Below, in pieces: positions 42,489 to 50,904 of a stretch of 64,000 nucleotides of DNA; within the stretch, counting starts at the first letter, position 1; each line of letters starts with the position of its first letter. Source of the DNA: Eubacteriaceae bacterium (GTDB taxonomy: Bacteria; Bacillota; Clostridia; Eubacteriales; Anaerofustaceae); assembly GCA_017531485.1 (NCBI GenBank), contig JAFXKY010000046.1:124001-188000 (forward strand), given 5' to 3'. Below the pieces are notes generated by a model, which was not told the origin of the DNA, did not search any database, and saw only the letters and a program-made list of their open reading frames with translations. Position numbers and translations under genes: made by a program.

Positions 42489-43829
42489 TTATACTCCTTC
42501 TTCGTAAATTGGCAGTTTGATTTCTATTAATGTTCCTTCGGACTGCTTTGAGGTCGCTGTAATGGTTCCTTTGTGGATATCGACGATCCATTTCGCTATG
42601 GAGAGTCCGAGACCTGTGCCACCCTGCCTGCGTGAACGCGCTTTGTCGGCGCGATAAAATCTGTCAAATATCTTTCCGATATCTTCTTCGGAAATGCCTA
42701 TGCCCGTATCCCTGACGCCGATTATGACTTCTCCTGAACTACTTACGGTGCTCACATCGACTTTTCCTCCTGATGGGGTGTACTGCATGGCGTTATCTAT
42801 TACAATAAGCATAAGCTGCTCTATTTTTGACGGATCGGCGTGGATGGCCGGATCTGACTCATCGAGGGAAATATTAAGTTCTATTCCCTTTTCTTTCGCC
42901 GCAGGATATACGGAGAAATATATATCATCCATTATTTCATTCAGATCCACCTTTTTCATCTCAAGATCCGCCTGTTTAAGGTCTGTGCGAGCAAGGAACA
43001 ACAGATCAGTAATGAGTTTTTCCATTCTCTGTGTCTCGTTGTACGCGTTTTCAAGCCATGGGATCTGTCCCGACACCGTTTCGTCGGGGCTTGACATGAC
43101 CAGATCGAGATTTGTCCTGACGATGGTTATCGGTGTACGGAGTTCATGCGATGCATCCGCAACAAACTCCTTTTGTTTTTCCATATTGTTTATAATGGGA
43201 ACCATCGCCTTTCCGGCAACAAAATATCCACATATGAAGCATACGGAAGCGCCGAAAAAAGCACTTATAGTAAGCGAACGAAGCAATTTGTCATTGAAGG
43301 CATTCTTTTCATTCATGTTGCCTATAAGCTGGATAATCCTTATATCTCCCGCATCGTTTGAAAGGATCGTGGAACAGATACGTATGTTCGTTTCTTCATA
43401 ATGATACTCGTGAATATAATACGTACCGTCTGATTCGGTTATTTCATTTACGCTTAACGTGTCTTTCGTAAAAAGAGATTCTTTGCTTTTCTTAAGAACC
43501 GAGTCATCATAAGAGAAGTTTTTATGCATCAGAAGCGGACTGTCTGATTCTCCCCATACACAAAACGATAAAAGAGAATTGTCGAGTCTTTCTGTGAAGT
43601 AATAATAATCATCCGTAAGTTCCTTATCGTGAGATGATGAGACATGTGGGATTATTGAAATATATCTTTTAAGCTGATACGCATTCGACATCAGTTCGCT
43701 GTCTGCATTCTGTACGGTGGTGACACCTACGCTCATATAAATAAACACGATCATCGCCAGAAGTACAGAAAACGAAACGACGGTGTTGATGACAGTAAGT
43801 TTGAATTTTATCTTGTTCAGTTCATTCAT
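42489..43829 (-). CDS. Membrane sensor histidine kinase
   Basis: 446 aa. Helix 1 at about 13-33, an extracytoplasmic sensor of about 150 residues, helix 2 at about 186-207, then HisKA (FVADASHELRTPITIVRTNL) and HATPase with N box DNAMQYTP, G1 VRDTGIGISEED, F box IFDRFYRAD and G2 GGTGLGLSIAK. It phosphorylates the response regulator encoded immediately upstream, sharing one base with that gene's stop. The signal is unknown. Confidence 0.95.
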   Translation of the reverse strand: MNELNKIKFKLTVINTVVSFSVLLAMIVFIYMSVGVTTVQNADSELMSNAYQLKRYISIIPHVSSSHDKELTDDYYYFTERLDNSLLSFCVWGESDSPLLMHKNFSYDDSVLKKSKESLFTKDTLSVNEITESDGTYYIHEYHYEETNIRICSTILSNDAGDIRIIQLIGNMNEKNAFNDKLLRSLTISAFFGASVCFICGYFVAGKAMVPIINNMEKQKEFVADASHELRTPITIVRTNLDLVMSSPDETVSGQIPWLENAYNETQRMEKLITDLLFLARTDLKQADLEMKKVDLNEIMDDIYFSVYPAAKEKGIELNISLDESDPAIHADPSKIEQLMLIVIDNAMQYTPSGGKVDVSTVSSSGEVIIGVRDTGIGISEEDIGKIFDRFYRADKARSRRQGGTGLGLSIAKWIVDIHKGTITATSKQSEGTLIEIKLPIYEEGV

Positions 43830-44500
43830 TATTCTTCCACAAGGCTGTAACCGAGTCCGCGCTTGGTCTTGATACGGACGCTTTTGCTGTTCTGAAGTTT
43901 CTTTCTGAGATAGTGAATATATATCTCAACGGTGTTATCTATGGCATCGCTTTCAAAACCCCATACAGTGTCGAGAAGATGTTCTTTTGAAACCACATTG
44001 TTTGCATTTCTGATGAGGATGTCCAGAATGTGCACTTCTTTTGCCGTAAGTCCCTGCACATCGTTTCCGACAGACAGAGTCGCGTTGTTCGGATTAAGGG
44101 TAATATCCCCGAAAGATATCTTATTGCTTTCGACGATCTCCGGACGCCTTCTTGAAAGAGCCCTGACTCTTGCGATGAGTTCTTTTGCGGAAAATGGTTT
44201 TGTGAGATAATCATCTGCACCGAGCTCAAGTCCCCTGACTTTGTCATCAACGCTGTCTTTCGCAGTCAGAAGGAGTACGGGCGTATGCAGTCCGAGATCC
44301 CTGATCTTTTTCAGAACTTCCAGACCGTTCATTTCGGGAAGCATGATATCAAGGATTATGACATCATAGATATTTTTCTTAGCCTGAATAAATCCACTCA
44401 GACCGTCATAAACTACATCTGTGGGCAGGTTATTTTTTTCCAGAAGTTTGCACAGCGGTTCGGCAATTCCGATCTCGTCTTCGACCAATAAAATTCTCAT
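43829..44500 (-). CDS. OmpR/PhoB-family response regulator
   Basis: 223 aa. Receiver domain with the acidic pair at 7-9, phosphoacceptor Asp51 (VIILDIMLPEMNG), Thr in LLTAKD and Lys in LTKPF. The C-terminal winged helix has DNTVEIYIHYLRKKL and the wing RIKTKRGLGYSL. First gene of a four-gene unit with its kinase, pcrA and a membrane protein. Its promoter has two direct repeats in an overlong spacer. Confidence 0.95.
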   Translation of the reverse strand: MRILLVEDEIGIAEPLCKLLEKNNLPTDVVYDGLSGFIQAKKNIYDVIILDIMLPEMNGLEVLKKIRDLGLHTPVLLLTAKDSVDDKVRGLELGADDYLTKPFSAKELIARVRALSRRRPEIVESNKISFGDITLNPNNATLSVGNDVQGLTAKEVHILDILIRNANNVVSKEHLLDTVWGFESDAIDNTVEIYIHYLRKKLQNSKSVRIKTKRGLGYSLVEE

Positions 44501-45139: not shown

Positions 45140-46369
45140 ATGCAGAACGCAAAATTAAAATTCATGTCTTTTTTACTCGTTACTATGTTCTCACTCGGAG
45201 CAATAAATTATTCATACAATGAAAAAATATTGCAGTTTCCATGTGTGGACAGAAGCTATTCAACAAGTTTCGACAAAAATCCTCAGGATAATGTCAGATA
45301 CGGTGACTCCGAAAAAAAAATAATAAAAAATTATGAAAAACGGGAAGGTATTTTGGAAGTCCTTGCAAATATATATAGTGTACGGCAAAAATTCTCCGAA
45401 AAAACCTACGTTTATCCGGGGGGAGACCTCATCGGAATTGATCTGTATACTGATGGCATAATCTGTGTCGAATTCGAGGATCTGAAGGCAGGAGGAGAAA
45501 TCATCTCCTCTCCGGCAAAAAAAGCAGGGATACTCCATGCGGATATCATAACGCATGTGAACGGTCAAAAAGTTGACAGTGCAGACGAATTCGAACGTAT
45601 AATCAGTGACCTTGCGCAGGATATTTGTGAAGTGACGATAAAAAGAAAGGATGTGATGCTGAAAAAGAAGGTCGGAATTGTAAAATGCGATGATAAAGCA
45701 AAACGGATAGGATTATGGGTACGCGACAATGTAATGGGGCTGGGCACCATAAGTTTCATTACTCAGGACAGAGAAGACTTCGCAGCACTCGGACACCCTA
45801 TCAGCGACTCATCGACAGGGATAACCGTTCCCGTAAAAAACGGTGAACTTATCGGTGCAGACGTCCTGAGTATTGTTAAAGGACGTAAAAATCATCCCGG
45901 AGAGATCAGGGGCATAATCCGGAAGACCGATGAGCTGAAAGCAACCATAACACAAAATAGCGAATTTGGGATTTACGGCAAAATAATTTCTGACAAGCTT
46001 ATTTCGGATCGTGACCTGATAGAACTTGCACCTCGCAGCGAAGTTCATGCCGGAGATGCAAAAATTATCACAACCATAGACAATGAGCGAAAAGAATACG
46101 ACATCATCATAGAAGAAGTCTACACTCAGGACGAACCGGCAACAAAATCTATGATGATAAAAATCACAGATGAGGATCTTATCGAAAAAACCGGAGGGAT
46201 AATCCAAGGAATGAGCGGAAGTCCGATAATACAAAACGGAAAGCTTGTGGGTGTGGTGACTCACGTATTAACAGGCGATCCGAAGCGCGGATATGCCATT
46301 TATTCCGAATGGATGATCAAAAAATGCATCGGCTGTCAAAATACGACAGCCTCTGCAAACGGAAAATAG
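45140..46369 (+). CDS. spoIVB: SpoIVB sporulation signalling serine peptidase
   Basis: 409 aa. N-terminal membrane anchor (about 8-24), a PDZ domain at about 115-175 (PAKKAGILHADIITHVNGQK), and an S55 peptidase domain with His219 (FAALGHPIS) and catalytic Ser359 in IQGMSGSPIIQNG. Secreted from the forespore, SpoIVB cleaves SpoIVFA and so triggers pro-sigma-K processing in the mother cell. It directly precedes spo0A, the order kept across spore formers. AAAGGAG precedes the ATG. Confidence 0.97.
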   Translation: MQNAKLKFMSFLLVTMFSLGAINYSYNEKILQFPCVDRSYSTSFDKNPQDNVRYGDSEKKIIKNYEKREGILEVLANIYSVRQKFSEKTYVYPGGDLIGIDLYTDGIICVEFEDLKAGGEIISSPAKKAGILHADIITHVNGQKVDSADEFERIISDLAQDICEVTIKRKDVMLKKKVGIVKCDDKAKRIGLWVRDNVMGLGTISFITQDREDFAALGHPISDSSTGITVPVKNGELIGADVLSIVKGRKNHPGEIRGIIRKTDELKATITQNSEFGIYGKIISDKLISDRDLIELAPRSEVHAGDAKIITTIDNERKEYDIIIEEVYTQDEPATKSMMIKITDEDLIEKTGGIIQGMSGSPIIQNGKLVGVVTHVLTGDPKRGYAIYSEWMIKKCIGCQNTTASANGK

Positions 46370-46419
46370 TATTATGACCGTACAACAAATATTTTTCAAC
46401 AAAGAAAGGATTTATACAT

Positions 46420-47235
46420 ATGAAGATCTGTATTGCTGATGATAATCTCAAATTTGCAGGCACTTTAGAAAAAAGACTCAATTCATCCTCCAAATTCAAC
46501 GTGGAATTTGTGGCATCAAACGGAAGAGATGCTCTGGCTTACATAAAAATGGCCAGACCGAACATTATTATCACGGATATCGTGATGCCGGTACGTGATG
46601 GACTCGACATCATCAAAACCGTACGTGAAGACATAGAAAATTACGAACCCGCCATTATCGTAATATCTGCCATAGGCGGAGAAAAATACACAAGAAAATG
46701 CATCGAACTCGGCGCGGATTATTACTTCGTAAAACCAATTAATCTCGAAGAATTTACAGCAAAACTCGAAAACATCGTTGAAATTCATGAAGAGATCCAT
46801 GAGTCCAAAATGTACGAAAACCCGTCAAAAGTATCTTCACCGTTCAATCAGACATGGTTTGATCAGAAAAGGGATATAAAAGATCTCCATCTTCTCGTAT
46901 CGGAAGTATTAAGAGAGATCGGTATCCCGGCACACATCAAAGGACACACCTATCTGAGAGATGCTATAAAGATGGTTGTCGAAGATATATCATTCCTCGG
47001 TCAGGTAACAAAAGTGCTTTATCCGCAGATCGCGGAAAAGTATGACACTACTCCATCAAGGGTTGAAAGAGCTATCAGACATTCCATTGAAGTAGCATGG
47101 ACGAGAGGAAGAATGGATGAACTTGACAATCTTTTTGGTTACTCTGTGGATTATTCCAGGGGAAAACCGACAAACTCAGAATTTATCGCCATGATTGCTG
47201 ACAGAATCAGAAACATTATCGGGCAATACGCATAA
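46420..47235 (+). CDS. spo0A: Spo0A, master response regulator of sporulation
   Basis: 271 aa. Receiver domain with acidic pocket (ADDN), phosphoacceptor Asp53 ([14 protein letters not shown]) and Lys in FVKPINLEE. The signature C-terminal effector has [17 protein letters not shown] and the recognition region [20 protein letters not shown], then [10 protein letters not shown]. Phosphorylated Spo0A binds TGTCGAA-type boxes and starts sporulation. AAAGGA precedes the ATG. No clear Spo0A box lies in the 50 bases upstream. Confidence 0.98.
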
Positions 47236-47367
47236 GTTTCCGTTCTGCATGGCCCTGACAATAACGGAAAAGATCTTATATATTGCATCACACATTCAGA
47301 CTTTTCCGGAGAAATGTCACAGGAAAATTTAGACTGTAAAACTGATGTAGAATCTTACTATAAAAAT

Positions 47368-47397
47368 AGCTCAGGAAAACCTCCTGAGCTGTTTTTT
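47368..47397. terminator. Terminator between spo0A and the sigma gene
   Basis: Stem AGCTCAGGA/TCCTGAGCT with loop AAACC, followed by TTTTTT on the + strand. Confidence 0.9.
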
Positions 47398-47989
47398 ATT
47401 CATTATTCCCCGGATCATAATATTCCGCGAGTTTCTTTTTTGCACGAAAGATCGCATTGTCTACCTGTTTCCGGCTTAAATTCAGTATCTTTGCAATTTC
47501 ATTATATTGATATCCTGAAAGTGAATATACAAATACTTCCAGCTCACTTTCAGAAAGGATCCTCTTCATGAGATCGAAAGCCTCCGCCTGCATGACGCTG
47601 GTAACGAGATACGAATCATCATAAGACAGTCTTTTGTCCGATACCATATGTTCATCATCTATTGACACGACTGTATACATTCCTTTGCGCTTCTGTGAGT
47701 TGCTGTCGCGGAGAATCTGTCTGACAGAGTTTTTTACACATGCTGCCGCGTAGCTGCTGAAAGGAATATTTTTCTCAGCCTTATATGTCCTTATCGCCGT
47801 AAGAAACGACATCATCACTATCTGTCGGATGTCGTCCTTTTCGTAGTAGTTCGAATGAGTATTAAAAACGTTATGATCTATCAACGGACGATATCTTTTC
47901 AAAAGTTCCTCAAATGCATCCTGATCCGATGTATCCACAAAAAGATTTATTAGTTGTATATCGAGACAATTCTTGTAATCACTTTTCAC
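47396..47989 (-). CDS. SigH-like (Spo0H-type) RNA polymerase sigma factor
   Basis: 197 aa. Region 2: DAFEELLKRYRPLIDHNVFN, then KDDIRQIVMMSFLTAIRTYK. Region 4: SELEVFVYSLSGYQYNEIAK and LNLSRKQVDNAIFRAKKKL, which closely follows the SigH pattern (YxEIAxxLNxxxKxIDNAxxRxKxKL). SigH drives early sporulation genes including spo0A in Bacillus. The start is GTG at 47989 after GAGG. It is divergent from spoIIGA. It may be sigH itself or a paralogue; the usual sigH neighbourhood is absent. Confidence 0.82.
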   Translation of the reverse strand: MKSDYKNCLDIQLINLFVDTSDQDAFEELLKRYRPLIDHNVFNTHSNYYEKDDIRQIVMMSFLTAIRTYKAEKNIPFSSYAAACVKNSVRQILRDSNSQKRKGMYTVVSIDDEHMVSDKRLSYDDSYLVTSVMQAEAFDLMKRILSESELEVFVYSLSGYQYNEIAKILNLSRKQVDNAIFRAKKKLAEYYDPGNNE

Positions 47990-48028
47990 TTTCGCGTCCT
48001 CGCGGTTTTTAAAATAATTTATATTTAT

Positions 48029-48056
48029 ATATTATTTATATTCGAGATTTTGTCAA
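48029..48056 (-). promoter_or_regulatory. Possible promoter of the SigH-like gene
   Basis: On the minus strand, perfect TTGACA (48051-48056) and TAATAT (48029-48034), 16-base spacer, in a very AT-rich stretch. The -35 overlaps a TTTTGTCAAG sequence that itself resembles a Spo0A box. Confidence 0.5.
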
Positions 48057-48094
48057 GGGGTGTTTTAGCAGATTTTTACATTTCTCGCTATTTT

Positions 48095-48108
48095 TCGACA
48101 CGTGTCGA
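48095..48108. promoter_or_regulatory. Dyad of two Spo0A-box cores
   Basis: Perfect 14-base palindrome TCGACACGTGTCGA, made of two convergent TGTCGA cores of the Spo0A box (TTTGTCGAA). It lies about 105 bases upstream of the SigH-like gene and about 125 upstream of spoIIGA, in the divergent gap. A candidate -10 TATAGT (48209-48214) for spoIIGA has no good -35 at 17 bases, as expected of an activator-dependent promoter. Confidence 0.6.
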
Positions 48109-48230
48109 GCAAATAAACTGAGTAATGCCGCAATAAAATCAAAATTCAAGCCATAAATTTTGAATAAAATAAACATAAATTTCTACATATTTTTCATCAC
48201 AAGAGCTGTATAGTCTTACGGGAGGATGTG

Positions 48231-49016
48231 ATGTACGTATACGGTGAAGAGGTGTTTTTCGTTAATTTTTTGATGGATCTTATTATTTCGATGTTCACTT
48301 CGAAGATCCTCAGGCTGGGAAAGCGTGTCAGCAGATCTTTTTTATGCGCGCTGATCGGAGGCATATATGCGGTAAGTGTGATGTACGTGAAACAGAATAT
48401 GTTTTCACAGATCGCGGTGTGCCTTATAATGGGTGTAATTCTCTCAGGCAAAGATAACCAAAATATACTTTTGACGACTCTTGTTCTGTACATATGCTCC
48501 ATACTTTCAGGCGGAGGAGTCATAATGGTCATGAGGATGTCCGGAAAGCATTTATCGGGCATATTCTTTACTATATGCGTTTCAATGGCGATACTTGAAA
48601 TATTCTTTATCGTCAATATGCATATAAGAAATACCGAAACGATAAATCATTCTGTCATTATGGCAATTCTCACTCATTCGGGAAAGACTTATACGCTGAA
48701 GCTGTATAACGACAGCGGAAATCTGCTGACTACAGCCGGAGGCGAGAGGATAACAGTGATAGATCAGGAACTGTTCGGAGAAATATTCGGAAATATATAT
48801 GAAAAAATTACTTACTCCCCTGATATAAGTTTCGTATCCGCAAAAACTATCGCGGGAGAAAAAGTCTTTCACGTTTTAAAGGCAGACAGTCTTTACATCC
48901 CGGAGACAGATAAACTCATTTCCCCCGCATACGTGACATCCGCCGATATTGCACAGGTCCGTTTCGACGGAATAATAAATTTAACAGGAGAAAAAAATGC
49001 TGAAAGAATTACTTGA
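48231..49016 (+). CDS. spoIIGA: SpoIIGA, sigma-E processing aspartic peptidase
   Basis: 261 aa. Five N-terminal membrane helices (from MYVYGEEVFFVNFLMDLII) and a C-terminal aspartic protease-like domain with the D-S/T-G-N motif YNDSGNLL (Asp161). It is the membrane protease that matures pro-sigma-E in the mother cell once activated by SpoIIR from the forespore. The ATG at 48231 lies 5 bases after GGAGG; a GTG one codon earlier is too close. It overlaps sigE by 20 bases. Confidence 0.95.
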   Translation: MYVYGEEVFFVNFLMDLIISMFTSKILRLGKRVSRSFLCALIGGIYAVSVMYVKQNMFSQIAVCLIMGVILSGKDNQNILLTTLVLYICSILSGGGVIMVMRMSGKHLSGIFFTICVSMAILEIFFIVNMHIRNTETINHSVIMAILTHSGKTYTLKLYNDSGNLLTTAGGERITVIDQELFGEIFGNIYEKITYSPDISFVSAKTIAGEKVFHVLKADSLYIPETDKLISPAYVTSADIAQVRFDGIINLTGEKNAERIT

Positions 49017-49695
49017 AATGATCAGAAAAATGATCCTGACGCGAAGAAATATGTTTTTTGCGGCATCTTATGACTATCTGCCACAGCCTCTCGGAAAAGA
49101 AGAGGAAGATCGCCTTATCCTTCTCATGCATAACGGAGATGAGGATGCTAAAAAGGCTCTTATCGAACACAACATCCGCCTCGTGGTATATATCGCAAGA
49201 CGGTATGATTCCGGTTCATCGTCAGAAGACCTTATCTCCATCGGTACCATAGGTCTTATCAAAGCCGTAAACACATTTGACAGCAGCAAAAAAATAAAGC
49301 TCGCCACGTATGCATCTAAGTGCATTGAAAATGAGATACTGATGTATCTCCGCAAGGCCGTGCGGCAGAAAAGTGAGATTTCCCTCGATGAACCTCTAAG
49401 CACGGACTGGGACGGAAACGAACTCGTTCTCGGTGATATAATCTCGTCAGACGAAAGTCCCGTGGGAAGCGAGCTCGAAAGAGAAAGCGAGCTGATGATG
49501 CTTAAAGAAGCAATGAAGAAGCTGACAGACAATGAACGGCTGATTATTTCACTGAGATTCGGAATGAACGGAAATGAAAGAAAGACACAAAAAGAAGTTG
49601 CCGATATCATGAATATATCTCAGTCGTACATATCAAGGCTTGAAAAAAAGATAGTAAAAACACTCAGAAAAGAGATGAAATATTCTCAGGGATGA
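48997..49695 (+). CDS. sigE: RNA polymerase sporulation sigma factor sigma-E
   Basis: 232 aa. An N-terminal pro-sequence (MLKELLEMIRKMIL, removed by SpoIIGA) is followed by region 2 (EDLISIGTIGLIKAVNTFDS, LATYASKCIENEILMYLRK) and region 4 (NERLIISLRFGMNG, KTQKEVADIMNISQSYISRL). It directs the early mother-cell transcription programme. AGGAG precedes the ATG inside the spoIIGA end. Unlike Bacillus, sigG does not follow; a sortase gene does. Confidence 0.97.
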   Translation: MLKELLEMIRKMILTRRNMFFAASYDYLPQPLGKEEEDRLILLMHNGDEDAKKALIEHNIRLVVYIARRYDSGSSSEDLISIGTIGLIKAVNTFDSSKKIKLATYASKCIENEILMYLRKAVRQKSEISLDEPLSTDWDGNELVLGDIISSDESPVGSELERESELMMLKEAMKKLTDNERLIISLRFGMNGNERKTQKEVADIMNISQSYISRLEKKIVKTLRKEMKYSQG

Positions 49696-49715
49696 AAAAC
49701 CTTATCCATAAAATA

Positions 49716-49744
49716 TTGTTTATTGGGCATGGTTGTGATATAAT
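49716..49744 (+). promoter_or_regulatory. Sortase gene promoter
   Basis: TTGTTT (49716-49721) and perfect TATAAT (49739-49744), 17-base spacer, 60 bases before the sortase start. Confidence 0.7.
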
Positions 49745-49803
49745 ACTTAAGCGTATGCACAGAGTACGCAATTAATGTCGGAAAAACCATAAAGAGGTAG
49801 CAA

Positions 49804-50904
49804 ATGAACGAAGAAAAAAGCCCATTTGAAACTCCGGAAAATGATGAAAACGTATTATACGGAACATCTACGGACGAAGTTAATGAAATAGACGAAAAAC
49901 AGGACGATATTTCCGAAATCAATACTTCAGAAGACGTCACAGATGTCACATCGGAAGAAATAAAAGAAGATGACGTACATAGCGAAGAGGTCATTACCAA
50001 AGACGTAACAGAAGAGACCGGAGACGATTTAAAATCCGAAACCGGCGATGCTCCTTCGGAAAGTGCGGGAGAAACCGCCCTTACAAAGACAGATAACAGC
50101 GTTGCGGCAGGAAGTAACTCAAAAGAAAAAAAATCAAAGAAATCAAAAAAGAGAAAGAAAAGGCTGCTTGATGCGTTACTCGTTTTCTGCATAGTCGGTC
50201 TTATGGTAAGCGGATATTTCCTTATGTCTGACATTCTTCCGAGAATCGAGAACATGAAGAACATCAAGGACATTCAGCAGGTATCCCCCATTATCGACAC
50301 TGAAAAAGACACCTCACGCATCCCTTCCATTGAATATCTCAAAGAGATCAACAAAGATATCATAGGATGGATCAACATCCCGAATACGAATGTGGACTTC
50401 CCTGTTCTGCAGTGTTCCAACAATGATTATTACCTTCAGTATTCATACACCGAAAAATGGAATGATGCGGGAAGCATCTTCGTTGATTTCCGAAACAGCG
50501 ATGACTTCACGGATCAGAACACAGTAATCTACGGTCATGCACGTTATGACGGAACGATGTTTGCCCAGGTTCTTCATTACAAAAAACAGGCGCAGTATAA
50601 AAAAGCTCCGTTCATAACCATCGTTCTGGAAGGAAAAGTATACTACTATCAGATCTTCTCAGCAAACATTGTCCCGGCGGATTATGACTACCGTGAAGCG
50701 GATTACGGCAAGGATTTCATGAAGCACATCAAGGCGATGCGAAAAGATTCAATGATCAAATCTTCAGCTGTTGTCAACGAAGACAGCAAGATCATCACTC
50801 TGTCCACCTGCACAAACGTCATCGAAGACGGTAGACTCGCACTTCTGGCAGTTCTTCTCAATCCGGACGGCGAAAAGATCGACCTCAGCCAGTACCCACT
50901 TTAA
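49804..50904 (+). CDS. Class B sortase with long acidic cytoplasmic N-terminus
   Basis: 366 aa. Residues 1-105 are acidic and low-complexity (Glu/Asp/Thr/Ser), followed by a Lys-rich patch (106-120), one membrane helix (121-141) and a class B sortase domain. Catalytic residues are His245 (VIYGHARYDGTMF), Cys336 (ITLSTCTN) and Arg344 (GRLALLAVL). It joins sorted proteins to the cell wall or pilins. No sortase substrate gene is adjacent. The N-terminal extension is much longer than usual. Confidence 0.93.
   Translation: MNEEKSPFETPENDENVLYGTSTDEVNEIDEKQDDISEINTSEDVTDVTSEEIKEDDVHSEEVITKDVTEETGDDLKSETGDAPSESAGETALTKTDNSVAAGSNSKEKKSKKSKKRKKRLLDALLVFCIVGLMVSGYFLMSDILPRIENMKNIKDIQQVSPIIDTEKDTSRIPSIEYLKEINKDIIGWINIPNTNVDFPVLQCSNNDYYLQYSYTEKWNDAGSIFVDFRNSDDFTDQNTVIYGHARYDGTMFAQVLHYKKQAQYKKAPFITIVLEGKVYYYQIFSANIVPADYDYREADYGKDFMKHIKAMRKDSMIKSSAVVNEDSKIITLSTCTNVIEDGRLALLAVLLNPDGEKIDLSQYPL

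Follow-up and report, generated by a model that had tools for sequence, protein, structure and literature searches.

A conserved composite of 0A boxes between a sigH-like gene and spoIIGA in a Eubacteriaceae bacterium, a candidate operator for Spo0A

Background

Tandem 0A boxes before spoIIG are the standard arrangement, and in the Bacillus layout these boxes lie head to tail in a 10-bp phase. To our knowledge, Spo0A is known only on tandem boxes.

Spo0A of B. subtilis contacts G2, C4 and G5 of the box, and when these bases were changed, C. difficile Spo0A bound with an affinity about ten times lower (PMC3485338). The same report has the DNA-binding domain of C. difficile Spo0A binding DNA upstream of sigH in vitro, where a consensus box lies at -78, and binding the upstream regions of spoIIAA, spoIIE and spoIIGA with low affinity (PMC3485338). 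The spo0A promoter of B. subtilis carries several neighbouring boxes, 0A1-0A3, which have mixed effects and interact with each other (PMC12090719).

The locus described here resembles the Spo0A-activated spoIIG promoter of B. subtilis and Clostridia in its spoIIGA-sigE pair, in upstream 0A boxes of the favoured orientation and in their apparent 10-bp head-to-tail phase. It differs in having an inverted third box that forms a perfect dyad, a divergent sigH-like gene in the same gap, and a site that lies further from the inferred start. As in C. difficile, 0A boxes lie upstream of the sigma gene, but the box there is reported for sigH alone in the accessible part of PMC3485338, whereas here the composite lies between sigH and spoIIGA. 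Several neighbouring 0A boxes are also what links this site to the B. subtilis spo0A promoter, although there they serve two promoters of one gene and here the genes are divergent (PMC12090719).

Results and discussion

The locus and its genes

The window, which is the whole stretch of 64,000 nucleotides that was analysed, belongs to a genome of 2,171,452 bases in 81 contigs (G000). The genes of the locus run in the order spoIVB, spo0A, a minus-strand sigma gene, spoIIGA, sigE and srtB (Table 1). The gene coordinates bear out the earlier note, which had placed the site in the divergent gap between the sigma gene and spoIIGA. The gene that usually follows sigE is sigG; a sortase gene has this position here, and a second sigma gene has it in many of the other loci compared. 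Beyond G000, a tblastn comparison of 92 loci, several of them incomplete, finds a sigH-like gene adjoining spoIIGA only in L036/L116 (one contig), and no other locus in the comparison has sigH and spoIIG side by side.

Table 1. Genes and sequence features of the locus, in window coordinates
Feature	Position	Strand	Remarks
spoIVB	45140..46369	+	
spo0A	46420..47235	+	Spo0A_C domain intact
Divergent SigH-type sigma factor gene, 197 aa	47396..47989	-	SigH-like by profile score
-10 TAATAT of sigH-like gene	48029..48034	-	16-bp spacer; consensus match only
-35 TTGACA of sigH-like gene	48051..48056	-	Inside TTTTGTCAAG (48048-48057); consensus match only
Weak second box TAGCGAG (4/7)	48084..48090	-	10-bp tandem phase with left arm
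Conserved 23-bp composite CGnTATTTTTnGACACnTGTCGA	48086..48108		20/23 identical in G001
Left arm, perfect 0A box TGTCGAA (7/7)	48094..48100	-	Orientation favoured at spoIIG promoters
Perfect palindrome TCGACACGTGTCGA	48095..48108		No mismatch; G001 counterpart TAGACACATGTCGA
Right arm, inverted third 0A box TGTCGAG (6/7)	48103..48109	+	Oriented towards sigH-like gene
CATATT before spoIIGA	48186..48191	+	Conserved; putative -10 of a long-spacer promoter or -35 for TATAGT
TATAGT (TATATT in G001)	48209..48214	+	17 bp after CATATT in both genomes; putative alternative -10
spoIIGA (Peptidase_U4)	48231..49016	+	ATG at 48231; listed ORF begins with GTG at 48228
sigE	48997..49695	+	
Class B sortase gene (srtB) after sigE	49804-50904		

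Spo0A is encoded about 1 kb from the site, and its score of 299 bits exceeds the cut-off of 200. Its DNA-binding domain is intact, and the DNA-binding helix is nearly the same as that of the solved Spo0A. The product of the sigma gene scores under the SigH cut-offs, with 76.1 against 212 bits for the best SigH-type model and 60.6 against 294.8 for TIGR02859, as do four other SigH-like members of the family that were scanned (best SigH-type scores of 164 in G004, 121 in G002, 118 in G007, 103 in G001 and 76 in G000). Its best sigma-family match is SigH-type, and the SigH model finds no better match in the genome. Because the score lies under the cut-off although the best match is SigH-type, the product is described here only as a putative, divergent 'SigH-like' factor.

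Palindrome and 0A boxes

The earlier note had drawn attention to a perfect palindrome, TCGACACGTGTCGA, which is present without a mismatch and occurs in one exact copy in the genome. Symmetry was rejected as evidence of function, and by itself it proves little, since perfect 14-bp palindromes are common: the window has 8 against a mean of 5.0 in 20 shuffles, and when the gap was shuffled 5000 times, 243 of the products contained one. These numbers would suit a functionless palindrome that arose by chance in an AT-rich gap, yet the site is conserved and near-unique at the same place in two genomes, which makes chance a very improbable explanation.

A regulon of such dyads was considered and rejected. 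The exact dyad is unique, and of the two further matches with 2 mismatches one is inside a coding region (C26:7964) and the other at a gene end upstream of glnS (C35:78704). At the latter place a second inverted 0A-like pair, TTCGTCAAGTGTCGAA, spans G000:C35:78703-78718 (L196), where an rsmG-like gene ends upstream of glnS (gene names assigned by eye). The pattern search returned no inverted pair at glnS of G001; the only perfect match to TTCGNCANNTGNCGAA in that genome sits within an lpd-like coding region. In G007 a sigH-like gene directly precedes glnS.

Both arms of the palindrome are 0A-box cores, as had been proposed, the left one matching TGTCGAA at 7/7 and the right one at 6/7; in G001 both match at 6/7, giving boxes with at most one mismatch in the two genomes. 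The contrast that the same note had drawn with the tandem boxes of Bacillus is not supported. On the minus strand, TGTCGAA-AAA-TAGCGAG at 48084-48100 matches the tandem pattern with 2 mismatches, so that the left arm appears to have a weak partner in 10-bp phase, and the site resembles the spoIIG site of L124, a locus of another family (f2) of the same order. There, CGnTATTTTTnGAC matches exactly before spoIIGA, as AGTCGAA-AAA-TATCGAA, without the right arm. The fit of the weak box to the consensus varies from TATCGAA (6/7) in L124 to TAGCGAG (4/7) in G000 and TAACGTT (3/7) in G001, where the tandem counterpart reads TGTCTAA-AAA-TAACGTT (6/7 and 3/7). The left half thus resembles a tandem Spo0A site whose second box is poor, and the right arm an inverted third box. 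Since the L124 site resembles the left part and has no inverted arm, this arm looks like an addition to a tandem site.

The L124 site also favours the possibility that the left part alone matters. Spo0A~P would then control spoIIG from 48084-48100, the sigH-like gene would be constitutive from its consensus promoter, which has a full TTGACA as -35, and the right arm would be a by-product. Against this, the right arm TGTCGA is identical in G001 at 6/6 positions while much of the gap has diverged, and this alternative is considered rather unlikely.

Conservation of the composite

G001, the sole genome of the same genus returned by the search, keeps the gene order, with SpoIIGA 31% and the SigH-like protein 39% identical to those of G000. 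It also keeps CGnTATTTTTnGACACnTGTCGA at the equivalent position in its gap. The best aligned 20-mer between the two gaps has 18 of 20 positions identical, where the best of 100 aligned shuffle pairs reaches 17, and the distance from the site to TTTTGTCAAG is 47 bases in G000 and 48 in G001. Of 67 genomes of the order, G000 and G001 alone have the composite pattern with at most one mismatch, each at a single place (control 0). GACACRTGTCGA occurs at one place in G000, at one in G001 and in none of the eight other family genomes; its reversed control has one match in G000 and one in G005. Both real gaps carry GACANNTGTC; among 5000 shuffles of each, 4 have it for the G000 gap and 8 for the G001 gap, numbers that are indicative only, as GACANNTGTC was picked after the site was seen. 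Conservation is the more independent evidence, and it argues for function more strongly than symmetry.

Among other spoIIG upstream regions of the family, those extracted were L037 and L118, with L119 to L123 left out. Neither has the composite: L037 has no match even at up to 3 mismatches, and the match in L118, 235 bp upstream, has 2 mismatches.

Operators of TetR- and MarR-type regulators typically show two-fold symmetry. The dyad may accordingly be an operator unrelated to Spo0A, for a regulator of that kind or for the product of a response regulator and kinase-like gene pair that ORF translations place at 42489-44500, 4 kb from the site. The inverted 2-bp spacing, moreover, is not among the Spo0A sites described in the accessible parts of PMC3485338, PMC7643835 and PMC12090719. 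The dyad, however, lacks a second exact copy in the genome, and its symmetry is lost in G001, where the left arm reads TAGACA. The conserved block passes the dyad on the left side only, as expected of a tandem 0A pair, and includes part of the weak box. Among the six proteins annotated from 45140 to 50904, none but Spo0A is a regulator of this sort. Another symmetric-DNA regulator is thus improbable here, and binding of Spo0A at the composite is likely.

0A boxes upstream of other sporulation genes

Of the 92 loci, 83 yielded spoIIG upstream regions (some start codons were guessed); 74 were kept and 73 scored for pair enrichment, and 80 were used for orientation. In these 80 clostridial spoIIGA upstream regions, 0A boxes with at most one mismatch were counted by orientation. 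Those reading TTCGACA towards the gene come to 39, with 26.2 expected and no shuffle out of 100 reaching this count, and those in the opposite orientation come to 14 against 22.0. TTTGACA, a -35 word, is left out of these counts, the raw bias (57 against 28.3; opposite 15 against 23.1) having been inflated by 18 such words. The left arm has the orientation favoured for spoIIGA. The right arm is oriented in the same way towards the sigH-like gene, as is the box of the G004 sigH-like gene, where TGTCGAA-AAA-AGTCGAG lies just upstream of TTGACA. G004 is the only one of three relatives examined to have such a box; upstream of sigH in G002 and G007 there is no box with at most one mismatch, which is a further point for the left part acting alone.

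Tandem pairs beat all 20 shuffles in 2 of the 73 spoIIG regions in the minus orientation and in 5 in the plus orientation, against 3.5 expected, and inverted pairs do so in 11 of the 73 (3.5 expected). The inverted excess was rejected as an excess of this dyad: among the 14 matches listed at 10 or above outside G001, 8 are TTTGACA or TTAGACA, taken by eye as -35 sequences, followed by nn-TATCGCA/CAC-like words near the -35 in Ruminococcus-type loci. Genome-wide, inverted 0A pairs with the 2-bp spacer are not enriched over controls (9 against 12 in G000; 4 against 9 in G001), which again suits a right arm that is a by-product. Tandem pairs are not enriched either (30+34 against 27+37 in G000; 22+18 against 35+28 in G001).

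Upstream of spoIIE, both G000 and G001 have a TGTCGGA box in the favoured orientation, with TTCCGACA on the coding strand starting 29 bases before TATATT (L172 about 3394, L173 about 3510). This box is likely a Spo0A site. The spoIIA operon has no conserved site; G000 has one 0A-like match upstream of the first gene and G001 a perfect box inside coding sequence. G001 also carries a perfect tandem 0A pair, TGTCGAAATTTGTCGAA (L201 1501-1517; G001:C82:1794-1810), directly upstream of a small frame that by eye resembles an XRE-type regulator.

Promoters of the gap

The earlier note had read TTTTGTCAAG as a further Spo0A box overlapping the -35 of the sigH-like gene. The overlap stands, but with a fit of 5/7 to the box and of 6/6 to TTGACA, TTTTGTCAAG is better read as the -35 itself. 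The boxes of the composite are 105-120 bp from the sigH start codon. Guesses of the two transcription starts would put the dyad at a distance of about 80 bp on the sigH side and of about 97 or 120 bp on the spoIIGA side. The composite is far from both putative promoters, unlike the spoIIE box and the G004 sigH pair, which lie near theirs.

A putative operator shared by divergent genes

The favoured reading, to which we give a probability of roughly 0.55, is that the site is a Spo0A~P operator common to the divergent sigH-like and spoIIGA-sigE promoters. This figure was lowered from 0.58 to allow for the absence of a sigH box in two of the three relatives and for the poor fit of the weak box. 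Further points against this reading are the lack of genome-wide enrichment of inverted and tandem pairs, the long distances to both putative promoters, the absence of the composite from L037 and L118, and its presence in two genomes only. The core would be the head-to-tail 0A pair on the minus strand (48084-48100), one box perfect and one weak, oriented as at other clostridial spoIIG promoters, and Spo0A~P on this left pair would activate spoIIGA-sigE. The right arm, a third 0A box back to back with the pair, most likely would extend the action of Spo0A~P to the sigH-like gene. Control of sigH by the site is plausible, and its effect is more likely to be activation, as Spo0A-SigH feedback, than repression.

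A variant of this mechanism is a two-way switch, in which a head-to-tail Spo0A~P dimer would occupy either of two overlapping registers, or a symmetric dimer both arms. A 10-bp repeat of TCGA within the dyad makes the two registers possible: the one facing spoIIGA reads TGTCGAA-AAA-TAGCGAG (7/7 + 4/7), and the one facing sigH reads TTTCGAC-ACG-TGTCGAG (5/7 + 6/7). If this were true, one short site would either share out the output between the start of sporulation (sigH) and the first mother-cell step (spoIIG) or couple the two. Such a switch is unlikely, and the proposal that one symmetric dimer acts in both directions is unproven.

As far as the searches go, a known operator would have a new arrangement here, with an inverted third box in a composite that separates sigH and spoIIGA; no work on inverted 0A boxes was found among titles and abstract openings of the open-access literature.

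A split sigG gene

The second SigF/SigG-type gene is split at YAVP|MIVGEIRR in 4 of the 10 family genomes searched; sigF itself is intact in spoIIA (L128). The halves lie at G000:C41:13104-13316 (L174) and G000:C64:434-916 (L175), and on C79/C56 in G001, C2/C6 in G005 and C27/C26 in G007. A short core is common to both halves at the break, CCGTGCCGA in G000 and G001, GCCGTGCCAATG in G005 and TGCCGATG in G007. The outer ends form imperfect 19-bp inverted repeats, with 3 of 19 positions differing in G000 and 1 of 19 in G001. With such recombination-like ends, the split sigG looks like a developmentally rearranged gene. SigG acts in the forespore. Since a plain excision in the forespore would pass to the spore, an inversion or a two-piece sigma factor is to be considered. 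No title on a split sigG was found in the open-access literature.

Each of the four split-sigG genomes encodes a large serine recombinase of about 450 aa, and these four proteins are orthologous and 57-72% identical: L218 (G000:C44), L221 (G001:C19), L220 (G005:C7) and L219 (G007:C37). Among 7 of the 24 resolvase matches from the six other family genomes that were compared, the best is about 35% identical (G002). In G007 the recombinase gene directly precedes an intact sigK-like gene. The large serine recombinase is a candidate for rejoining sigG.

Conclusions

If the left part alone works, the site would be an ordinary spoIIG operator. The composite would bear on whether Spo0A can use an inverted box and on whether one site can drive two directions. 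If the favoured reading is true, sigH and spoIIG would be under one Spo0A site beside spo0A itself, which would form a compact hub for sporulation control in a little-studied gut lineage.
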